This document shows, in pieces, positions 17,800 to 30,690 of a stretch of 64,000 bases of DNA. Made by a program: the position numbers and the translations under genes. Under the pieces are notes generated by a model. It was not told the origin of the DNA. It was given only the letters and a program-made list of their open reading frames with translations, and made no database searches. Numbering within the stretch: the first letter of the stretch is position 1; the number at the start of each line of letters is the position of its first letter. This DNA is from Candidatus Deferrimicrobiaceae bacterium (GTDB lineage Bacteria > Desulfobacterota > Deferrimicrobia > Deferrimicrobiales > Deferrimicrobiaceae): NCBI GenBank assembly GCA_036504035.1, contig DASXVV010000006.1:1-64000 (forward strand), written 5' to 3'.

Positions 17800-18348
17800 G
17801 TGTACTGGATGCCGTTGGTGCTGCTGGTCGTGTTCGTGCTCTGGTTCGCCGTCACCTATAATCGCCTCGTCTCCCTCCGCAATATCTTCAACAACGCCTG
17901 GCACCAGATCGACGTCCAGCTCAAGCGGCGCTACGACCTCATCCCCAACCTGGTCGAGGCGGTCCGCGGCTACCTGACCCACGAGCGGGAAACGCTCGAA
18001 CGGGTTATCGCGGCGCGCGGTGCGGCCGTCAACGCGCAGGGGGCGGCGGCGCAGGCCAAGGCCGAAAACGTGCTGACCGAGTCGCTCAAGAGCCTCTTCG
18101 CAGTCGTCGAGGGCTACCCGGACCTCAAGGCCAACCAGAACGTCATGGCATTGCAGGAAGAGCTGACCGCCACCGAGAACAAGATTTCCTTCGCGCGGCA
18201 GTTCTACAACGACTCGGTCATGGGGTACAACACCGCCATCCAGTCGATCCCCGCCAACGTCATCGCTTCGCTGTTCAACTTCGCTCCGGCCGAATACTTC
18301 CAGGCCGACGAGGCCGACCGGTCCGTCCCCAAGGTCGATCTCCGGTAG
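17800..18348 (+). CDS. lemA: LemA family membrane protein
   Basis: 182 residues. GTG 17800 follows GGAGGA (17788-17793). A single N-terminal membrane helix (WMPLVLLVVFVLWFAVTY) precedes the LemA helical domain with the family motif NIFNNAWHQIDVQLKRRYDLIPNLVE and the C-terminal RQFYNDSVMGYNTAIQSIPAN. LemA proteins commonly sit next to a membrane metalloprotease or a TPM-domain protein, as here. Molecular role is not settled for the family. Followed after 15 bases by the M48 protease gene. Confidence 0.92.
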   Translation: MYWMPLVLLVVFVLWFAVTYNRLVSLRNIFNNAWHQIDVQLKRRYDLIPNLVEAVRGYLTHERETLERVIAARGAAVNAQGAAAQAKAENVLTESLKSLFAVVEGYPDLKANQNVMALQEELTATENKISFARQFYNDSVMGYNTAIQSIPANVIASLFNFAPAEYFQADEADRSVPKVDLR

Positions 18349-18363
18349 TCCGGAGCCGCCCCC

Positions 18364-19494
18364 ATGCCCACGACGGAGCACACCTGCCCGAAATGCGGCG
18401 CGCCCAATCCGGCCGAGGCCGGCTGGTGCTACCTCTGCCAGGCGCGCTTTGACGGCGACCTCTCAGGCGACGCGCCCCCCCCGGCGCGCGAGGGGCAGCC
18501 CATCGAAGGATTGACCGACGCTGCCGAACCGCCGGCCGCCGTCCCGGTCTCCGAGTCCGCGTCGAAGCCGCCGTTCCGGATCGACCGCCCGATTTCATTC
18601 TACGAGGCCGCCTCCGAGAACGTGCTGCGATCGCAGTTCCTGTTCCTCGTTCTGTTCGGCCTCTTCTTCATCCTGGGGGGGGTGATCGGCCAGGCGTACG
18701 GCCGCTGGCAGGACGGCCTCGCCGTGGCGATGGTCGTCTACGTCATCCTCGCCGCGGTCGCCTGGTTCAACGGGTCGTCGATCGTCCTGTCGCTCCACGA
18801 CGCCCATCCCGCCGATCCGGTCAACGACCGGCAGCTCATCAACGTCGTCGAGGAGATGGCGATCGCCGCGGGGCTTCCGCCCCCCAAGGTCTTCGTGATG
18901 GAAACGCTCGGGATGAACGCCTTCGCCGCGGGGCGCAAGCCCGAGGAAGCGGTCGTCGCCGTGACGCGCGGGCTGATCGAGAAGGTCGATCGGGCGGAAC
19001 TGCAGGCCGTCGTCGCCCACGAGCTGGCGCACATCAAGGGGCGCGACACCCTTTACGGCATCTGCGCCGCCGTGCTGGTCGGCGCGGTTGCCCTGCTCTC
19101 CGACATGTTCCTGCGCGGCACCTGGTTTTCCGGCCGCCGCCGCGGCAGCGACGGGAGCCGCGGCAACCCGGTCTTCCTGCTGCTCGGCATCGCCCTGGCG
19201 CTGCTGGCGCCCCTGGCTGCGAAGATCCTCCAGATGAGCATCTCCCGCCAGCGCGAATACCATGCCGACGCCGGGGCCGCCGAATTCACGCGCAATCCGC
19301 TCGCGCTCGCGTCGGCGCTCGAAAAGATCGCCGACGGCGGCGCGCACGTGCCCGGCGAGAACCGCGGCACCCAGCACCTGTTCATCGTCAACCCGCTCCA
19401 GGCGTTCACCGATACCTCGTCCGCGCTCATGTCCACCCACCCGCCGACCGTCGAGCGCATCCGGCGGCTGCGGGCGATGGCCGGTGCTGGGTAA
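18364..19494 (+). CDS. M48 family membrane metalloprotease (HtpX-like) with N-terminal zinc ribbon
   Basis: 376 residues. The N-terminus carries a zinc ribbon (Cys8, Cys11, Cys22, Cys25), unusual for plain HtpX. Two hydrophobic segments follow (FLFLVLFGLFFILGG, then VYVILAAVAWF). The catalytic HEXXH is HELAH at 219-223 and the downstream REYHADAGAAEF provides the third zinc ligand. A further membrane segment pair (NPVFLLLGIALALLAPLAAKIL) lies between. Role by family: zinc-dependent proteolysis of membrane proteins at the cytoplasmic face. Pairs with lemA in one operon behind a strong promoter. Confidence 0.9.
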   Translation: MPTTEHTCPKCGAPNPAEAGWCYLCQARFDGDLSGDAPPPAREGQPIEGLTDAAEPPAAVPVSESASKPPFRIDRPISFYEAASENVLRSQFLFLVLFGLFFILGGVIGQAYGRWQDGLAVAMVVYVILAAVAWFNGSSIVLSLHDAHPADPVNDRQLINVVEEMAIAAGLPPPKVFVMETLGMNAFAAGRKPEEAVVAVTRGLIEKVDRAELQAVVAHELAHIKGRDTLYGICAAVLVGAVALLSDMFLRGTWFSGRRRGSDGSRGNPVFLLLGIALALLAPLAAKILQMSISRQREYHADAGAAEFTRNPLALASALEKIADGGAHVPGENRGTQHLFIVNPLQAFTDTSSALMSTHPPTVERIRRLRAMAGAG

Positions 19495-19580
19495 AGGGGG
19501 CTCGACGCAGGTTTCGTGTTAAACTGGGCTCGCGCAGCAAGGACGGCGCTTTCAATTTCCGCATACGGAGGTCTTAAACG

Positions 19581-20060
19581 ATGAAATTCACGGAAGACGC
19601 GCTCAAGTTCCTCAACCTGGGAATCGAGTCCGAGCTGGCCGCCTATGTCTTCTACAAGAAGGCCCTCAAGCTCATCACCGACCCGGCGCTCAAGGAGACC
19701 GTCGAGAAGCTGGCCGCCGACGAGAAGGGGCACTTCCTCTCGCTCGAAGACGAATACGACGAGAACGTCCGGTCCGAGTGCTGGGCGCCCTACCGCGACA
19801 TCATGGAGAAGCCCGGCCTGCCCGAGATCGACGAGATGCTCCAGGAAACCCATGTCTATCTGCTCGACCGGGTGAAGTCGATGAAAACCCGGAAAGAGTT
19901 CCTGGACATCGCGCTCATGCTGGAAAAAGAGGCACTGAAGCTGTTCACCGACGCGGCAGCCACCGTCACGAACCCCGAGTTCAAGAAGGTGTTCGAACAT
20001 CTCGCGTCTTTCGAGCAGGGGCATGTCCAGATCATCGAGCGGGAACTCGCGAACCTCTAG
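19581..20060 (+). CDS. ferritin-like / rubrerythrin-type diiron protein
   Basis: 159 residues, all-helical. Two ExxH iron motifs are visible (Glu48/His51 in DEKGH and Glu145/His148 in FEQGH) together with Glu18 and Glu115/Glu117, giving the four-helix diiron site of ferritin-like proteins. No C-terminal rubredoxin CxxC domain is present, so it is a ferritin-like protein rather than a full rubrerythrin. Likely role: peroxide reduction or iron handling in an anaerobe. ATG 19581 follows GGAGG at about 19568-19572. A strong terminator follows at 20116-20150. Confidence 0.87.
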   Translation: MKFTEDALKFLNLGIESELAAYVFYKKALKLITDPALKETVEKLAADEKGHFLSLEDEYDENVRSECWAPYRDIMEKPGLPEIDEMLQETHVYLLDRVKSMKTRKEFLDIALMLEKEALKLFTDAAATVTNPEFKKVFEHLASFEQGHVQIIERELANL

Positions 20061-20182: not shown

Positions 20183-20566
20183 TCAGCGCGGATCACGCTC
20201 CTTGCGGGCGCGGCGCTCGGCCTGGAGCCGGTCGAATTTCGCCTGCTGGTCGGGCCGTAGCAGCGCCCGCACCCGGGTCCGGGACCGGTCGATCGCCCCC
20301 TCGACCTGCTGCTGGAGCGGTTTCCGGATCTCGAGAATCTCCTTGTGCGTCTCGGCGACGATCGCGCGCACCATTTCGCGCTGGGCCGCGTCGAGGTCCA
20401 ACGAGCGGGTCAGCCGCCGGACGATCACGTCACCCGTCTCGTGCCCCCGGCCCGCAAGAAACGCCTCGAACCCGTGCCGCTCCGCATGATACACGGCGAA
20501 GCCGCCGGCCGCCGCGCCGAGCAGGAATACCATCAAAACCCCGAGAATTGCCTTGAACCGTTTCAT
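20183..20566 (-). CDS. membrane-anchored periplasmic metal sensor, CnrX/Spy/ZraP-like
   Basis: 127 residues: an N-terminal membrane anchor (FKAILGVLMVFLLGAAAGGFAV) then a helical hairpin domain of the Spy/CpxP/heavy-metal-resistance type (LTRSLDLDAAQREMVRAIV ... RVRALLRPDQQAKFDRLQAE). His27 and His31 form an HxxxH right after the anchor, the same arrangement as the first two metal ligands of CnrX; His42 and His74 are further candidate ligands. Genes upstream encode a one-helix protein and an ECF sigma factor, the same trio as cnrYXH. Predicted role: sense metal or envelope stress and control release of the sigma factor. Exact ligand unknown. Confidence 0.78.
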   Translation of the reverse strand: MKRFKAILGVLMVFLLGAAAGGFAVYHAERHGFEAFLAGRGHETGDVIVRRLTRSLDLDAAQREMVRAIVAETHKEILEIRKPLQQQVEGAIDRSRTRVRALLRPDQQAKFDRLQAERRARKERDPR

Positions 20567-20570
20567 GCCG

Positions 20571-20885
20571 TCACTCTCCCGTCAACGAATCGACCAGCGC
20601 AACCTGCTCGGGCCCGGAGAAGAGCAGGGCCGGATCGCCCATGCGGAATGGATCGTGATAAATGGTCCAGCCCCCCAGCAGCAGGGTGATCGCCAGGAAC
20701 AGGGGCATCAGCCGCCAGCCCCAGGCGTACCAAGGCTCGCGGCCGACGCTCCGCTCGCGGATCCGGGCCAGAAGCCGGGTTTCGAAGTTGCGCTCGACCA
20801 CGGCCGTATCGACCGGCGCTTCCCGCGCCAAGGCAAAAAGCCGGTCAAGCCGCGCATCCGTACAAACGTTCCGGTCATCCTTCAT
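20571..20885 (-). CDS. putative single-pass anti-sigma factor (CnrY-like position)
   Basis: 104 residues with an N-terminal ~52-residue charged cytoplasmic region, one membrane helix (WRLMPLFLAITLLLGGWTIY, about 57-76) and a short periplasmic tail. No zinc-binding HxxxCxxC anti-sigma motif is seen. Assignment rests on size, topology and location: its start overlaps the end of the ECF sigma gene by 11 bases and it precedes the CnrX-like sensor by 4 bases. Small one-helix proteins in this position (CnrY, many anti-ECF factors) hold the sigma factor at the membrane. Sequence similarity to CnrY was not established. Confidence 0.65.
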   Translation of the reverse strand: MKDDRNVCTDARLDRLFALAREAPVDTAVVERNFETRLLARIRERSVGREPWYAWGWRLMPLFLAITLLLGGWTIYHDPFRMGDPALLFSGPEQVALVDSLTGE

Positions 20886-21456
20886 CTTGCCCTCCGAGAA
20901 TCCTCTTCAATGCCTTCCGAGCCCGGAAGGCGCGCACCTTGACGCCCGTCTCGCTCCAGCCGGTCAGTGCGGCCACCTCCCGGATCGTCCGGTCCTCCAG
21001 CTCGAACAGCGTGATCACCAGCCGCTGATCGGGCTTGAGCTGCGCCATCGCGCCTTCGAGGATCAGCCGGGCCTGTTCCGCCGGACGGTCGGTCTCGGTG
21101 GACGGATCGACCGGGGGAAACGGCATCGCGTCGAGGGAGATGTTGCCCTCTTCCCGCCGCCGCTTCCGCAGGAAGTCGTAGCAGGCGTGGACCGCGATAC
21201 GGGAGAGCCAGTGGCCGAATGGCGCATCGCCCCGATAGGACGCCAGCGACTCGAAGGCCCGGATGAAGATCTCCTGGCCGAGGTCGTCGAGCTCGGCGTT
21301 GTTGCGCGCGAACCGCCAGGCGATACGGAGCACGTCGCGCCGGTGACGGACCACCAGCTCCGTGAATGCCCCTTCATCGCCCGCCTGGGCCGAACGGACG
21401 ATCGCAGTTTCGGATGGCTCTTCCATCCTTTCCATTATATGGGCGACTTCGGCCAT
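20875..21456 (-). CDS. ECF-type RNA polymerase sigma factor
   Basis: About 193 residues. Sigma-2 region: AFTELVVRHRRDVLRIAWRF and the DDLGQEIFIRAFESL segment; sigma-4 region: LKPDQRLVITLFELEDRT then a helix-turn-helix EVAALTGWSETGVKVRAFRARKAL. No sigma-3, so extracytoplasmic-function group. ATG 21456 is 8 bases after the outer-membrane factor stop; ATGs at 21435 and 21426 are alternatives and none has a clear ribosome site, so coupling to the pump genes is likely. With the two genes downstream it forms a sensor/anti-sigma/sigma set placed at the 3' end of the RND operon. Confidence 0.9.
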   Translation of the reverse strand: MAEVAHIMERMEEPSETAIVRSAQAGDEGAFTELVVRHRRDVLRIAWRFARNNAELDDLGQEIFIRAFESLASYRGDAPFGHWLSRIAVHACYDFLRKRRREEGNISLDAMPFPPVDPSTETDRPAEQARLILEGAMAQLKPDQRLVITLFELEDRTIREVAALTGWSETGVKVRAFRARKALKRILGGQDEG

Positions 21457-21463
21457 CGAAAGG

Positions 21464-22942
21464 TTACGGTGTCCCCGCCGGCGCATCTTTCAGGGAGGAC
21501 GCATTCCACCCGCCCCCCAGCGCCCGGATCAGCTGGACGCTCGCCACCATGCGGCGCCCCTGGATGTCGAGGGCCGTCCGCCGGTTCCCCAGCGCCGTCG
21601 CCTGCGCGATGATGACGTTGAGATAGCTGACCGTCCCCGCCTTGTACTGGTTGATCGCCATCTCGACGGACTGTTCCGCCGACCGGACCGCCAGATCCTG
21701 CGTCTTGGCCTCCGCCTCGAGGATGCGCAGCGCCGAAAGCGCGTCCTCGACCTCCTTGAATGCCGACAGGACGGTCTGGCGATACGCTGCCACCGTGCCG
21801 TCGTAGGCGGCGCGCGCCGATGCGGTCTGCGCCTTCCGCAAATCGCCGTTGAAGACCACCTCGGAGATCGACGGGCCGAGCGACCAGAAGCGGGCGGGCC
21901 AGGTCAGCCATTTGGCCAGGCTGAGCGCCTCGAGCCCCGTCCCGGCGCCCAGACGGACCGTGGGGTAGTAGGCCGCCTCGGCCACGCCGATCTGCGCGTT
22001 GGCGGCCGCCATCCGGCGCTCGTCCCCCGCGATATCCGGACGCCGTTCGAGCAGCGCGGACGGGAGGCCGGCCGGCACGGGCGGCGGCACCGCATCGAGC
22101 GGCGCATCGGCAAGGGAGACGACGGAGGGGGGCTTCCCCACAAGCAGTGCGATCGCATGTTCGAACTGGGCCCGGGCCACCCGCGTGTCGATCACCTGTG
22201 CCTGGATGGTCCTTAGCTGGGTGTCGGCCTGGAGCACCTCGGATTTGGCCGCGACGCCGGCCTCGTATCGATTCTGCGTCAACACGAGCGATTTCCGGTA
22301 CGCCTCGATCGTCTCGTCGAGGATCTTCTTCTGGGCGTCGAGCGCGCGCATCTGGAAATAGTCCTGCGCCAGCTCGGCGCGGGCCGACAGGGTGATCGCC
22401 TCCACATCGGCCCGGCTCGCCTGGACGCCCGCCGTTCCCGACTCGACGGCGCGCCGGATCTTCCCCCAAAGATCGGGTTCCCAAGATGCTGATATCGGCA
22501 GCAGGTAGTCGGTGGTGCGACTGCCCCCCCCCGCGACTTCCCGGGACCGTTGTCCCCCGGTGATCGAGGCGCCCGCCGTCACCGTCGGCATCTCGCCCGA
22601 CCGCGCGATCGTCACCAGCGTTTGCGCCTGCCGATAGCGCGCCTCGGCGGCCGCCACATCCTGGTTGGCGATAACGACCTGCGCCTCGAGCGCGTTCAGC
22701 CCGGGATCGCCGTAGATTTCCCACCAGGGGCCGCGAAGCACGTTGTCGCCGGGAGAGGCAAGCTTCCATTCGCCGGTATCCTTCCATGCATCCGGCGACT
22801 TGAAGGCAGAAGGCGTCGGCGCCTCGGGCCTCACGTAGTTCGGGCCGACTGTCGCGCACGCGGAAAGCAGCGCCAGCGCACCAGCCATCGCGAGCCGTTG
22901 CCGCCCCTTCGCCGCCCTCCCGCATTTATCCCCTCGAATCAT
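21464..22942 (-). CDS. outer-membrane efflux lipoprotein (TolC/OprM/NodT family)
   Basis: 492 residues. The signal peptide ends ALLSAC (lipobox), followed by the NodT-type ATVGPNYVRPEAPTP. Two repeats of the outer-membrane factor fold are visible, with long helices such as QIGVAEAAYYPTVRLGAGTG and AYRQTVLSAFKEVEDALSALR. Role: the outer-membrane exit duct for the RND pump encoded just upstream. ATG 22942 has AAGGGGGG about 8 bases upstream; ATG 22972 is an alternative that overlaps the permease stop (ATGA) and would lengthen the signal peptide by 10 residues. Confidence 0.9.
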   Translation of the reverse strand: MIRGDKCGRAAKGRQRLAMAGALALLSACATVGPNYVRPEAPTPSAFKSPDAWKDTGEWKLASPGDNVLRGPWWEIYGDPGLNALEAQVVIANQDVAAAEARYRQAQTLVTIARSGEMPTVTAGASITGGQRSREVAGGGSRTTDYLLPISASWEPDLWGKIRRAVESGTAGVQASRADVEAITLSARAELAQDYFQMRALDAQKKILDETIEAYRKSLVLTQNRYEAGVAAKSEVLQADTQLRTIQAQVIDTRVARAQFEHAIALLVGKPPSVVSLADAPLDAVPPPVPAGLPSALLERRPDIAGDERRMAAANAQIGVAEAAYYPTVRLGAGTGLEALSLAKWLTWPARFWSLGPSISEVVFNGDLRKAQTASARAAYDGTVAAYRQTVLSAFKEVEDALSALRILEAEAKTQDLAVRSAEQSVEMAINQYKAGTVSYLNVIIAQATALGNRRTALDIQGRRMVASVQLIRALGGGWNASSLKDAPAGTP

Positions 22943-25900: not shown

Positions 25901-26094
25901 GCGGCCACCGACGTCGCCATCGTCTCGGGGTCCGCGCCGGGTAGCGAGGCGGAGACCGAGATCGTCGGATAGTCGACGGGCGGCAGCGCCGCGACGGGGA
26001 GCAGCCGGAAGGCGATCGCCCCGGCGAGCACCACGCCGATCGTGAGCAGCGTCGTCCCGACCGGACGCCGTATGAATACCGAGGAGATGCTCAT
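22969..26094 (-). CDS. RND multidrug efflux permease, MdtC-like
   Basis: 1041 residues with 12 expected membrane helices and two large periplasmic loops. Start [23 protein letters not shown] is typical of MdtB/MdtC. The proton-relay segment [20 protein letters not shown] is present with both aspartates, and [21 protein letters not shown] matches the HAE family. Role: proton-driven export of drugs or other amphiphiles, with its partner permease in a mixed trimer in MdtABC. Its ATG overlaps the upstream permease stop (ATGA). Substrates cannot be read from sequence. Confidence 0.9.
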
Positions 26095-29000
26095 GGCGCC
26101 ACCGGATCGGTTTCCGCAATCTCGCTCGCCGCGCTCCGTCCCGTGACGCGCCGCGCCAGCCGATCGAACGCCAGGTAGATGACCGGCGTCGTGTAGAGCG
26201 TGAGGAGTTGGCTGAGAATCAGCCCGCCCACGATCGCGATCCCCATCGGCCGGCGAAGCTCGGAACCCACGCCCGACCCCGCCGCCATCGGCAGCGCGCC
26301 CAGGAGCGCCGCCATCGTCGTCATCATGATCGGCCGGAAGCGCAGGAGGCACGCCTGGTAGATCGCCTCGTCGGGGGGCTTCCCCTCCTTGCGCTCGGCC
26401 TCGAGCGCGAAGTCGATCATCATGATCGCGTTTTTCTTGACGATGCCGATCAGCAGGATGAGGCCGATCAGCGCGATGACCGTGAACTCGATCCGGAACA
26501 GGAGCAGCGCCAGGATGGCGCCGACGCCGGCCGACGGAAGGGTGGACAGGATCGTGACCGGGTGGATATAGCTTTCGTAAAGGACGCCCAGGACGATGTA
26601 GACGGTGACCAGCGCCGCGAGGATCAGGATCGGCTCGTTGGCCAACGAATCGTGGAACGCCGCAGCGGTCCCCTGGAAACCGCCCCGGATGCTGGCCGGA
26701 ATGCCCAGCCCCGCCGTCGCCGCCGTGACCGCCTTCGACGCCGCGCCCAGCGACTCCCCCGGCGCCAGGTTGAACGAAAGCGTCGTCACGGGGAACTGGC
26801 CCTGCCGGCTCACCACGAGCGTGCCGGTCGTCTCCTCGATTCGCGCGATTGCGGAAAGCGGCACCTGCCCGCCGCCCGCGCTGCGGACCCGGATCGCGTC
26901 GAGCCCCGCCGGGCCGCGGCTGAAGTCGGGCTTGACCGCCAGGACGACCCGGTACTGGTTGAGCTGCGTGAAGATCGTCGAGACCTGCCGCTGGCCGAAC
27001 GCGTCGTAGAGCGCGTCATCGATCATCTGCGGGGTGATGCCCAGCCGGGACGCCGTCGCGCGGTCGATGACCAGCGACGCGCGAAGCCCCTGGTCCTGGA
27101 TGTCGGCGCTGACGTCGCGCAGTTCCGGCAGGGCGCGCAGACGTTCGACCAGGCGCGGCGTCCAGATGGCCAGCTCCTTCATGTCGGGGTCCTCGAGCGT
27201 GTACTGGTACTGGGTCCGGCTCACCCGGTCCTCGACGGAGAGGTCCTGCACCGGCTGGAGGTAAAGCATGATCCCGCCGAGCTTCACCAGCGCGGGCTGG
27301 AGCCGCCGGATGACGCCGGTCGCGTCCGCGTCGCGCTTGTCGAGCGGCTTGAGGTTGATGAGTACCCGTCCGCTGTTCAGCGTCGCGTTCGTGCCGTCGA
27401 CTCCGATGAACGACGACAGGCTCTCGACCGCCGGATCGGCGAGGATCACCCCGGCCAGCGCCTGCTGCCGACGGGCCATTTCCGTGAACGAGATGCTCTG
27501 GGGCGCCTCGGAGACGCCCAGGATGACACCCGTGTCCTGCACGGGGAAGAAGCCCTTCGGAACGAAGACATAAAGTGCGATGGTCAGGACGAGCGTCCCC
27601 GCCGCCACGAGCAGCGTCAGCCCCTGGTGCCGGAGCACCACCCGGAGCGTTCTGCCGTATCCGGCGACGACCCGGTCGTAAAACTTGAACTTGGAGACGG
27701 CCTCAGCATCTTTCGGGGGATGGTGCCTGAGCAGCTTCGCGCACATCATCGGCGTCAGCGTCAGCGAGACGACTGCCGAGATGAGGATGGTCACGCCCAG
27801 CGTCACGGCGAATTCGCGGAACAGCCGGCCGACGACGTCGCCCATGAACAGCAGCGGGATGAGCACCGCGATGAGCGAGACCGTCAGCGACAGGATCGTG
27901 AAACCGATCTGCGCGGAGCCCTTGAGCGCCGCCTGGAGTGGCGTTTCCCCTTCCTCGATATAGCGCGAGATGTTTTCGATCATGACGATCGCGTCGTCGA
28001 CCACGAACCCGGTCGAGATCGTCAGCGCCATCAGCGACAGGTTGTTGAGGCTGTAGCCGAGCAGGTACATCACGCCGAAGGTGCCGATGAGCGACAGCGG
28101 CACGGCGATGCTGGGGATGACCGTCGCCGGCAGGTTGCGCAGGAAGAGGAACATGACGAGGACGACCAGGAAGACCGCCAGCATCAGTTCTAGCTGGACG
28201 TCGTGGACGGAGGCCCGGATGGTCGTGGTCCGGTCGGTAAGCAGCGACACCTCGATGGACGCGGGCAGGGAGTTCTTGAGCTGCGGAAGCAGCGCCTTGA
28301 CGCGATCGACCACCGCGATGACATTGGCGCCCGGCTGACGCTGGATGTTGACGATCACCGCGGGCGTCTCGTTCATCCACGCCGCCTGGTTGACGTTCTC
28401 GGCGTCGTCGACCACGTCGGCGACGTCGGTCAGGCGGATCGGCGCGCCGTTCCGGTAGGCGATGATCAGCGGCCGGTATTCGCGGCTGGACAGCAGCTGG
28501 TCGTTGGCGCCGATGATGGCCGACTGCCGCGGCCCGTCGAACCCCCCCTTGGCCTGGTTGACGTTGGCGGTGCCGATCGACGCCCGAAGATCCTCGAGCG
28601 TCAGGCCGTATGAGGCCAGGGCGGTCGGATTGACGTGGATCCGGACGGCCGGACGCTGCCCGCCGCTGATGCGGACGAGCCCCACGCCGGGGAGCTGCGA
28701 GATCTTCTGGGCAAAGCGGGTGTCGGCGAGGTCCTCGACCTGCGGCAGCGTCAGCGTCTTCGAGGAGAGCGCCATCGTCAGGATGGGGGCGTCGGCCGGA
28801 TTCACCTTGCTGTAGACCGGCGGGTTGGGCAAGTCGCGCGGCAGGAAGTTGAAGCCCGCGTTGATCGCGGCCTGAACCTGCTGCTCGGCGACGTCGAGGT
28901 CGAGGTCGAGGCTGAACTGGAGCGTGATGACCGAGCATCCGCTGGAGCTGTTCGACGTCATCTGCTTGAGCCCCGGCATCTGGCCGAACTGCCGCTCGAG

Positions 29001-29198
29001 CGGCGCGGTGACGGAGGACGCCATGACGTCGGGACTTGCGCCGGGATAGAAGGTGGTCACCTGGATGGTGGGGTAGTCGACCTGAGGCAGCGCCGACACC
29101 GGCAGCAGTCGGTAGGCCACCCCCCCGGCCAGGAGGATCGCCGCCATCAGCAACGTGGTGGCGACCGGCCGGACGATAAACGGGCGGGAAAGGTTCAT
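26091..29198 (-). CDS. RND multidrug efflux permease, MdtB-like
   Basis: 1035 residues. Starts [20 protein letters not shown]; the periplasmic pore entry [20 protein letters not shown], the relay segment [19 protein letters not shown] and [21 protein letters not shown] are family hallmarks. It is a paralogue of the next permease, the usual two-permease arrangement of MdtABC. Its start overlaps the fusion-protein stop by 4 bases. HAE (drug) type rather than HME (metal) type is suggested by the DD pair in the fourth helix, although the adjacent CnrX-like sensor resembles those of metal pumps. Confidence 0.9.
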
Positions 29199-30493
29199 CG
29201 GCGTCCCTTTTTCGCGCCGCGCTCCTTCGCCGTTCCTCCCCCCGCGCCGAGGATGTCGACCTTGGCGCCGTCCCGGAGCCTGTCGGCCCCGTCGACGACG
29301 ACGCTCTCGCCGACCGCAAGCCCGGACGCGACGGAAGTGTCGTCCTCTTGCGACGGTCCGGGGACCACCGGCCTGGACGTGACGGTATTGTCCTGCTTCA
29401 CCACATAGACGAAGGCGCCTTGGGGGTTGCGCAGGATCGCCGCGGACGGGACCACGACGGTTCCCTTGCGGACCTCGAGGAGAAGGCGGGCGTTGACGAA
29501 CTGGTTGGGAAACAGCGCATTGCCCTGGTTCCCGAAGATCGCCTGGAGCTTGACGGTGCCGGTCGCCGGGTCGATCTGGTTGTCGATCATCTGGAGATAG
29601 CCGGTGGCCAGCAACTTCTTCCCCTCGCGGTCGTACGCCTCGACCTGCAGACGGCGGCCCCCTTTCATCCGGGGCAACAGCTGCGGAAGGGCGTCCTCGG
29701 GGATCGAGAAGATCACCTTGATCGGCTGGAGCTGGGTGATGACGACCAGCCCCCCGGGATCGCCGGCGTGGACGATGTTCCCCGCGTCCACGAGACGCAA
29801 TCCGAGCCGCCCGGGAATCGGGGCGGCGATCCGGGAATAGGACAGCTGGAGCTTCGCGTTGTCGACGACCCCCTGGTCGGACTTGACGACGCCTTCGTAC
29901 TGGCGCACCAGCGCCTCCTGCGTCTCGGGCTGCTGCCGGGCGATCGAATCCTGCTTGAGGAGGAGGCGATACCGGTCGAGGTCGAGCCGGGCGTTCTGGA
30001 GGAGTGCCTGGTCGCGGGCCAGTGCGCCCTCGGCCTGCGCGAGCTGCGCCTCGAAGGGCCGCGGATCGATCCGCGCCAGGAGCGTCCCCGGGGAAACGAC
30101 CTGGCCCTCCCGGAATAGCACCTCCAGCAGTTGCCCGTCGACCCGGCTCCGGACGGTGACCGTGTTGACCGGGACGACCGCCCCCAGGCCGTTTAAATAG
30201 ACCCCGACGTCGCCCTTTCGCGCGGCCGCCACGCTGACGGGGGCGCTCCGGGCAGCCGGGGCGGCGCCCGATTTCGGCAAGGCGGCTTTCCCCCGGTCGC
30301 TGCAGGTCAGGAAGATCGCGCCGGCTGCAACGACCACAGCGATCGCCGCAGCCGCGGTCAAAAGCCGCTTGCGGGCCAAGGGCGACGGGGATGCGGGGGA
30401 CGTGCCGGAAGTTTGCGCAGCGTGGAACCCGGGCGAGGTCGGCGCCGGAACGGTCTCGCGGGATGGCTTTCGGGACTTTTTCTTCCGTTGCAT
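29195..30493 (-). CDS. RND efflux periplasmic adaptor (membrane fusion protein), MdtA-like
   Basis: 432 residues. A basic N-terminal stretch and one membrane helix ([21 protein letters not shown]) precede the HlyD/RND adaptor domains: lipoyl half-motifs ([20 protein letters not shown] and [20 protein letters not shown]), an alpha-hairpin, then beta-barrel and membrane-proximal domain ([20 protein letters not shown]). Role: couples the permeases to the outer-membrane duct. ATG 30493 has AGGAA about 4 bases and GGAGG about 11 bases upstream; TTG 30511 is a possible alternative. First gene of a run of seven tightly spaced minus-strand genes ending at the CnrX-like sensor. Confidence 0.88.
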
Positions 30494-30519
30494 GGGGTTC
30501 CTGGCCTCCAAAGGGACGA

Positions 30520-30576: not shown

Positions 30577-30690
30577 GTCTCTTGAGTAGGTGCCTCCCGA
30601 GAGCAAAAGGTTACCGCCCTCCCCTGAAATAAACGGGGGGCACGGGAGATTTCTCTCCGGCAAGCCGATGGAAGATGCCGAGGAGGGGGA

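Follow-up and report, generated by a model that had tools for sequence, protein, structure and literature searches.

CpxP dampens CpxA in E. coli, and the cradles of Spy-family proteins, such as that of E. coli Spy, bind amphipathic partners. Another envelope-stress regulator of this organism, BaeR of the two-component system BaeSR, has sites both before spy and before the mdt-bae operon (PMC2731931); the regulon of this system comprises spy, mdtABC, and acrD. In Stenotrophomonas maltophilia, sigma-E induces the drug-type RND pump SmeIJK after membrane damage (PMC4229105). In the CnrYXH system, encoded on plasmid pMOL28 of Cupriavidus metallidurans, the ECF sigma factor CnrH, the short anti-sigma factor CnrY with a single transmembrane (TM) helix, and the anchored sensor CnrX of the LTXXQ/Metal_resist superfamily are linked to an RND pump of the metal type (HME) (PMC7689651; PMC4598750).

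The window, i.e., the whole stretch of 64,000 nucleotides that was analysed, carries an operon on its minus strand that runs from a periplasmic adaptor via two permeases and an outer-membrane factor (OMF) to an ECF sigma factor, a one-TM protein, and an anchored protein:

29195..30496, minus strand: periplasmic adaptor, MdtA-like, first gene of the pump operon (ATG at about 30493; HlyD_3 and HlyD_D23)
26091..29198, minus strand: RND permease, MdtB-like (HAE1; NCBIfam MdtB/MuxB 1581.6 bits, cut-off 1584; RND_permease_2 above cut-off)
22969..~26094, minus strand: RND permease, MdtC-like (HAE1; NCBIfam MdtC the best match, 1467 bits; RND_permease_2 above cut-off)
21464..~22900, minus strand: OMF, NodT family/OEP (TIGR01845 415 bits, cut-off 210)
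20875..21456, minus strand: ECF sigma factor (Pfam Sigma70_r2 5.6e-18, r4_2 4.4e-14)
20571..20885, minus strand: anti-sigma candidate, 104 aa (two helices predicted in the cytoplasmic N-terminal part, followed by TM helix 52-77 and a short tail in the periplasm)
20183..20566, minus strand: membrane-anchored sensor candidate of the Spy/CpxP/CnrX superfamily, 127 aa (N-terminal TM helix and LTXXQ-type helical domain)

The first-pass annotation had placed a sigma factor, a one-helix protein, and a Spy/CnrX-like anchor directly behind the OMF of a drug-type RND operon. This was borne out: 7 bases separate the OMF stop from the sigma ATG at 21456, the sigma and anti-sigma genes overlap by 11 bases, and the gap between the anti-sigma and sensor genes is 4 bases. 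The pump was also rightly called HAE/MdtABC-like rather than HME, as both permeases pass RND_permease_2 and reach 371 and 353 bits with the NCBIfam CusA/CzcA metal model, of which the cut-off is 701. The presence of two different permeases, one MdtB-like and one MdtC-like, within a single operon marks an MdtABC-type HAE1 pump. MdtB of the window is 68-84 % identical to MdtB of related pumps in the phylum, and the adaptor shares 56-64 % identity with those of MdtABC pumps from Desulfuromonadales. Judged by these matches, the pump is of the drug-type HAE/MdtB-MdtC class and not of the metal-type HME class. On the plus strand (window 17800-20060), genes for LemA, an M48 peptidase, and a rubrerythrin/ferritin-like protein converge with the module.

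The sigma factor carries sigma regions 2 and 4 only, which confirms the ECF identity given to it at first pass. Alignment with relatives moves its true start from 21456 to, probably, 21435 or 21426. In a sigma tree with long branches and an unsure deep order, its family is monophyletic (support 100/99) and the CnrH group is separate (100/99), which places the window sigma outside the CnrH clade. The one-helix protein gave no match in Pfam, NCBIfam, or PDB sequence searches; its FExRxxARI and WR motifs are kept across 80 homologues. A single-chain AlphaFold prediction has helices at 4-22, 27-48, and 52-77, and the two short cytoplasmic helices in this model would be compatible with the CnrY type. 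The size and topology of the protein equal those of CnrY, and hhalign against a single CnrY sequence gave 0.3 %. It is taken here as the putative anti-sigma factor.

The anchored protein scored below threshold with the Pfam models LTXXQ (22.1 bits, cut-off 24.3) and Metal_resist (16.5 bits, cut-off 29.2), and 21 of 28 members of its family match PF07813 at E<=0.01. Comparison by hhalign yielded 95.7 % with E. coli Spy and 97.1 % with a nine-sequence CnrX family profile, in agreement with the Spy/CnrX-like identity proposed for it earlier. A single CnrX sequence gave 1.2 %; the family profile is the fairer comparison, and the superfamily link is therefore retained, while the metal ligands alone are rejected (see below). 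A PDB sequence search with the protein returned nothing beyond weak Spy matches, and Foldseek gave no useful match for the AlphaFold model of either the sensor or the anti-sigma candidate. The sensor model consists of four helices, and the two LTxxQ-like motifs together with an all-helical periplasmic domain put the protein in the Spy/CpxP/CnrX (LTXXQ) superfamily. Five residues are invariant in all 80 homologues, G17 and G21 in the TM helix and Q62, L103, and Q107; they make up a GxxxG packing face in that helix and two LTxxQ motifs.

A search of relatives of the genome and of public genomes yielded 81 distinct loci, the window included, from organisms named as Deltaproteobacteria, Geobacter/Desulfuromonadales, Nitrospirae, and Verrucomicrobia. 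The order sigma, one-helix protein, anchored Spy-like protein is kept in 80 of them (Desulfobacterota, Nitrospirota, and Verrucomicrobiota). This recurrence puts the arrangement beyond chance, and the three genes form a self-contained and widespread module. In 30 loci there is also a gene for a soluble Spy-family protein nearby, usually directly upstream of sigma; the protein gave 98.6 % with E. coli Spy in a profile comparison, and the members tested pass the Pfam LTXXQ cut-off. In same-genus relatives this spy gene lies between the OMF and sigma genes. It is missing from the window operon, which has either lost it or never had it. No account of a sigma/anti-sigma/Spy-sensor module was found in the literature searched, to which the large ECF reclassification papers did not belong, and the module may already have an ECF group number.

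Two further kinds of gene were met in the loci. Small secreted proteins rich in Gly, Tyr, and Trp are encoded near the module or below module-type promoters (L035:2488-2904, L198, L024 near 8970, and L056:11899-12240); several of them end in a YWYYC...YYPY..C pattern, two that were tested had no Pfam match, and they are possibly a new envelope protein of the regulon. On two sphingomonad plasmids (L139 and L140), a CnrX-type "periplasmic heavy metal sensor" and a sigma gene stand directly before a copper-resistance multicopper oxidase; these represent a CnrX/CnrH relative tied to copper and not to an RND pump.

In 25 of 79 loci, the pair GTAAC-N17-CGTC was present ahead of the gene with which the module begins; in shuffled sequences, any pair of the same shape reached at most 5 (4-5). 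The aligned sites read yGTAACCTTT-N11-nnCGTCT, which is the classical layout of an ECF promoter. When a position weight matrix (PWM) was run over all loci, 60 sites scored 19 or higher in 1.17 Mb (shuffles, 0-2), and 47 of these immediately precede a spy, sigma, anti-sigma, or sensor gene. An AAC-type -35 and a CGTC-type -10 element thus precede the module's own operon, with a weaker -10 in the window, and the module is predicted to have a strong autoregulatory promoter. The PWM scan placed two predicted promoters in the window:

30588..30615, minus strand: predicted ECF promoter of the pump operon, GGTAACCTTT-N11-GGCACCT
21441..21468, minus strand: predicted ECF promoter at the OMF/sigma junction, CGTAACCTTT-N11-GTCGCCC

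Against an expectation of 0.01, the window has two copies of GTAACCTTT: the one at 30614 precedes the adaptor gene, and the one at 21467 lies where OMF and sigma adjoin. In same-genus relatives, a site of the junction type stands before the soluble spy gene. Both window -10 elements are off consensus: CGCC is found in G000, G018, G019, and G015, and CACC at the pump. This loosening, which appears to be a clade trait, explains why the window sites score below consensus sites (13.0 and 11.0, where most training sites reach 19-29). The contigs of G018 and G019 end inside pump genes. Spacing plus the loosened -10 (CNYC) match exactly twice in the 3.17-Mb genome to which the window belongs, before the pump and before sigma, and three times in about 43 Mb from 19 genomes of the family that lack the module. 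A further PWM match in the window, at 27795 on the minus strand, was rejected as a promoter because it falls inside the coding region of mdtB and is found in further mdtB genes as well; the homologous matches in L013 and L182 are explained by a conserved protein stretch. In five Verrucomicrobia loci (L062, L070, L076, L082, and L093), a match is located between sigma and anti-sigma, directly before the latter, which suggests separate control of the brake. At the end of contig C74 of G015 (L115), a near-perfect module promoter and a ribosome-binding site are followed by the start of an ORF that is cut by the contig end and possibly encodes a soluble Spy protein.

Related pumps from the rest of the phylum serve as a natural control. 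Beyond the genus, not one of the 20 closest pumps adjoins the module, and 19 of their genomes do not have it anywhere, so that the idea of a pump subfamily tied to the module was abandoned. The exception is the Geobacter MAG G172, which carries the module on another contig and is the only one of the 20 with a good promoter match directly before the MdtABC adaptor; no such site was seen upstream of the pump in the 19 genomes without the module. The 4.5 Mb of G172 contain just two copies of the pattern, one ahead of spy-sigma-anti-sensor and one ahead of mdtABC, where the adaptor starts 99 nt below the site. A control with the reversed pattern also yielded two matches, and the pattern had been loosened only after the sites had been seen; the weight of this result therefore rests on where the sites are and not on their number. 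As a sequence prediction, G172 thus has a site for one regulator before both spy and mdtA, the arrangement known from BaeSR; the window operon is without a soluble spy.

The module lies beside an MdtABC pump in 6 of the 81 loci. In L048 (Desulfuromonadales) the order is reversed relative to the window (spy-sigma-anti-sensor-MFP-MdtB-MdtC-OMF), L023 likewise has the pump after the module, and the pump of L035 comes after a spy gene that possesses a promoter of its own. L050 differs in that the module is followed by a MacA-like adaptor. In the sigma tree, the pump-linked loci L048, L023, and L035 branch outside the window clade, at no fewer than two positions. These reversed orders and scattered positions indicate that a drug-type tripartite pump has joined the switch more than once. 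The prediction that the sigma factor drives the MdtABC pump is unusually well supported.

The reading that is preferred, with a probability of roughly 0.65, is that the trio is a Spy-type envelope-stress sigma switch driving the MdtABC pump. The one-helix protein would hold the ECF sigma factor at the inner membrane, and the anchored Spy-like protein would pack onto it via the GxxxG face of its TM helix, so that the brake stays closed. Unfolded periplasmic protein or membrane-active amphiphiles would engage the Spy-like domain and lead to release of sigma. The freed sigma factor would transcribe from yGTAACCTTT-N11-nnCGTCT promoters, with the -10 loosened to CGCC or CACC in the window clade. 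Such promoters are seen as sequence before the MdtABC-OMF operon and before sigma itself, binding and transcription being predicted. The targets would be the operon of the module, Spy chaperones in the relatives, and the MdtABC pump. As the same promoter stands before the soluble Spy-like chaperone in relatives, the response would couple a periplasmic chaperone with efflux, as does BaeSR. Since the CnrX metal-binding residues are missing, the sensor would more likely read envelope damage than metal. Speaking against the reading are the off-consensus -10 elements of both window sites, the small share of module loci that adjoin an MdtABC pump (6 of 81), the lack of the module in 19 of the 20 genomes with the closest pumps, the match of the sensor to the CnrX family profile, which is as good as that to Spy, the uninformative Foldseek searches, and the missing soluble spy gene of the window. 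A bolder version is put forward tentatively, at a little under even odds: the anchored Spy domain would be the direct sensor through which an ECF anti-sigma factor registers amphiphiles or misfolded protein in the periplasm, and a sigma family spread over three phyla would have repeatedly recruited MdtABC pumps, giving a convergent, proteolysis-free counterpart of BaeSR and Cpx.

The alternative that survives best, unlikely as it is, has the sensor read the substrates of the pump (bile-like amphiphiles, flavonoids, or drugs) and not misfolded protein, which would make the module a local drug-resistance regulator. The affinity of Spy-family cradles for amphipathic partners and the operon linkage to a multidrug-type pump in three lineages would fit such a role; the module is, however, far more widespread than the pump and accompanies Spy chaperones.

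Less probable still is a true CnrYXH-type metal switch, in which the anchor would bind Co, Ni, Cu, or Zn and free the sigma factor, and the pump would export metal chelates or repair metal damage. The three-part logic equals that of CnrYXH and the sensor belongs to the CnrX superfamily. The window protein does have H27, H31, and H74, so that the HxxxH motif noted at first pass is real; it is not a conserved feature, being found in the juxtamembrane segment of only 3 of 80 sensors and absent from the two same-genus relatives, and at H27/H31 in the juxtamembrane stretch it is about 20 residues off the position of CnrX H42/H46. The CnrX ligands H42, H46, H119, and M123 are kept in nine of nine CnrX relatives. 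Together with E63, they map to sensor columns 49, 53, ~95, 99, and 70, respectively, which in the 80 sensors are hydrophobic or variable, with almost no ligand residues. In addition, the linked pump is HAE and not HME, and no metal efflux or metal chaperone genes were recognised among the motif-bearing genes inspected. The metal-sensor claim is thus not supported for the family. Several Desulfuromonadales sensors have His pairs of their own, so that metal binding is possible in particular lineages.

It is just as improbable that the module serves general envelope stress of the Spy kind and is only a neighbour of the pump, which would then be controlled by another regulator and co-expressed, if at all, by read-through. 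The scarcity of pumps near the majority of module loci, and of modules near the majority of related pumps, would fit this. Against it, the promoter match stands before the adaptor in the window and again in G172, where pump and module are unlinked, each time as one of two per genome, and there are three separate pump-linked lineages with differing gene order.

If the envelope-stress reading is correct, the automatic label "periplasmic heavy metal sensor" on such proteins gives way to an envelope-stress circuit that can be tested and whose promoters are named. The pairing of spy with mdtABC, known under BaeSR in E. coli, would then seem to have arisen independently with a sigma factor in control, a point of relevance to why environmental bacteria that meet few drugs carry MdtABC pumps.

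In conclusion, the module is like CnrYXH in layout and is not a member of that system. An ECF sigma factor, a short one-TM protein that is the anti-sigma factor there and a candidate for it here, and an anchored sensor of the same superfamily, linked to an RND pump, are common to both. Of the earlier description as CnrYXH-like, the architecture and, on promoter evidence, a sigma factor driving the pump have stood; metal sensing has not. The window family lacks conserved metal ligands, its anti-sigma candidate has no detectable similarity to the single CnrY sequence compared, and its sigma factor belongs to another clade than CnrH. Sigma, anti-sigma, and sensor follow the pump in the window, whereas the order is Y-X-H ahead of the pump in CnrYXH; the pump is HAE instead of HME, and relatives of the window have a soluble Spy gene. 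With SmeIJK the locus would share ECF sigma control of a drug-type RND pump, which is exerted there by the general sigma-E system and not by a dedicated module in the pump operon. With Cpx it would have in common that a Spy-family protein feeds into an envelope-stress regulator; the target of CpxP, itself a soluble protein, is a kinase, whereas the Spy domain of the module is membrane-anchored and accompanies an anti-sigma candidate. With BaeSR, finally, it would share a single envelope-stress regulator over a Spy chaperone and an MdtABC pump (PMC2731931), that regulator being a two-component system without an anchored Spy-like sensor in E. coli and a predicted ECF sigma/anti-sigma pair here.
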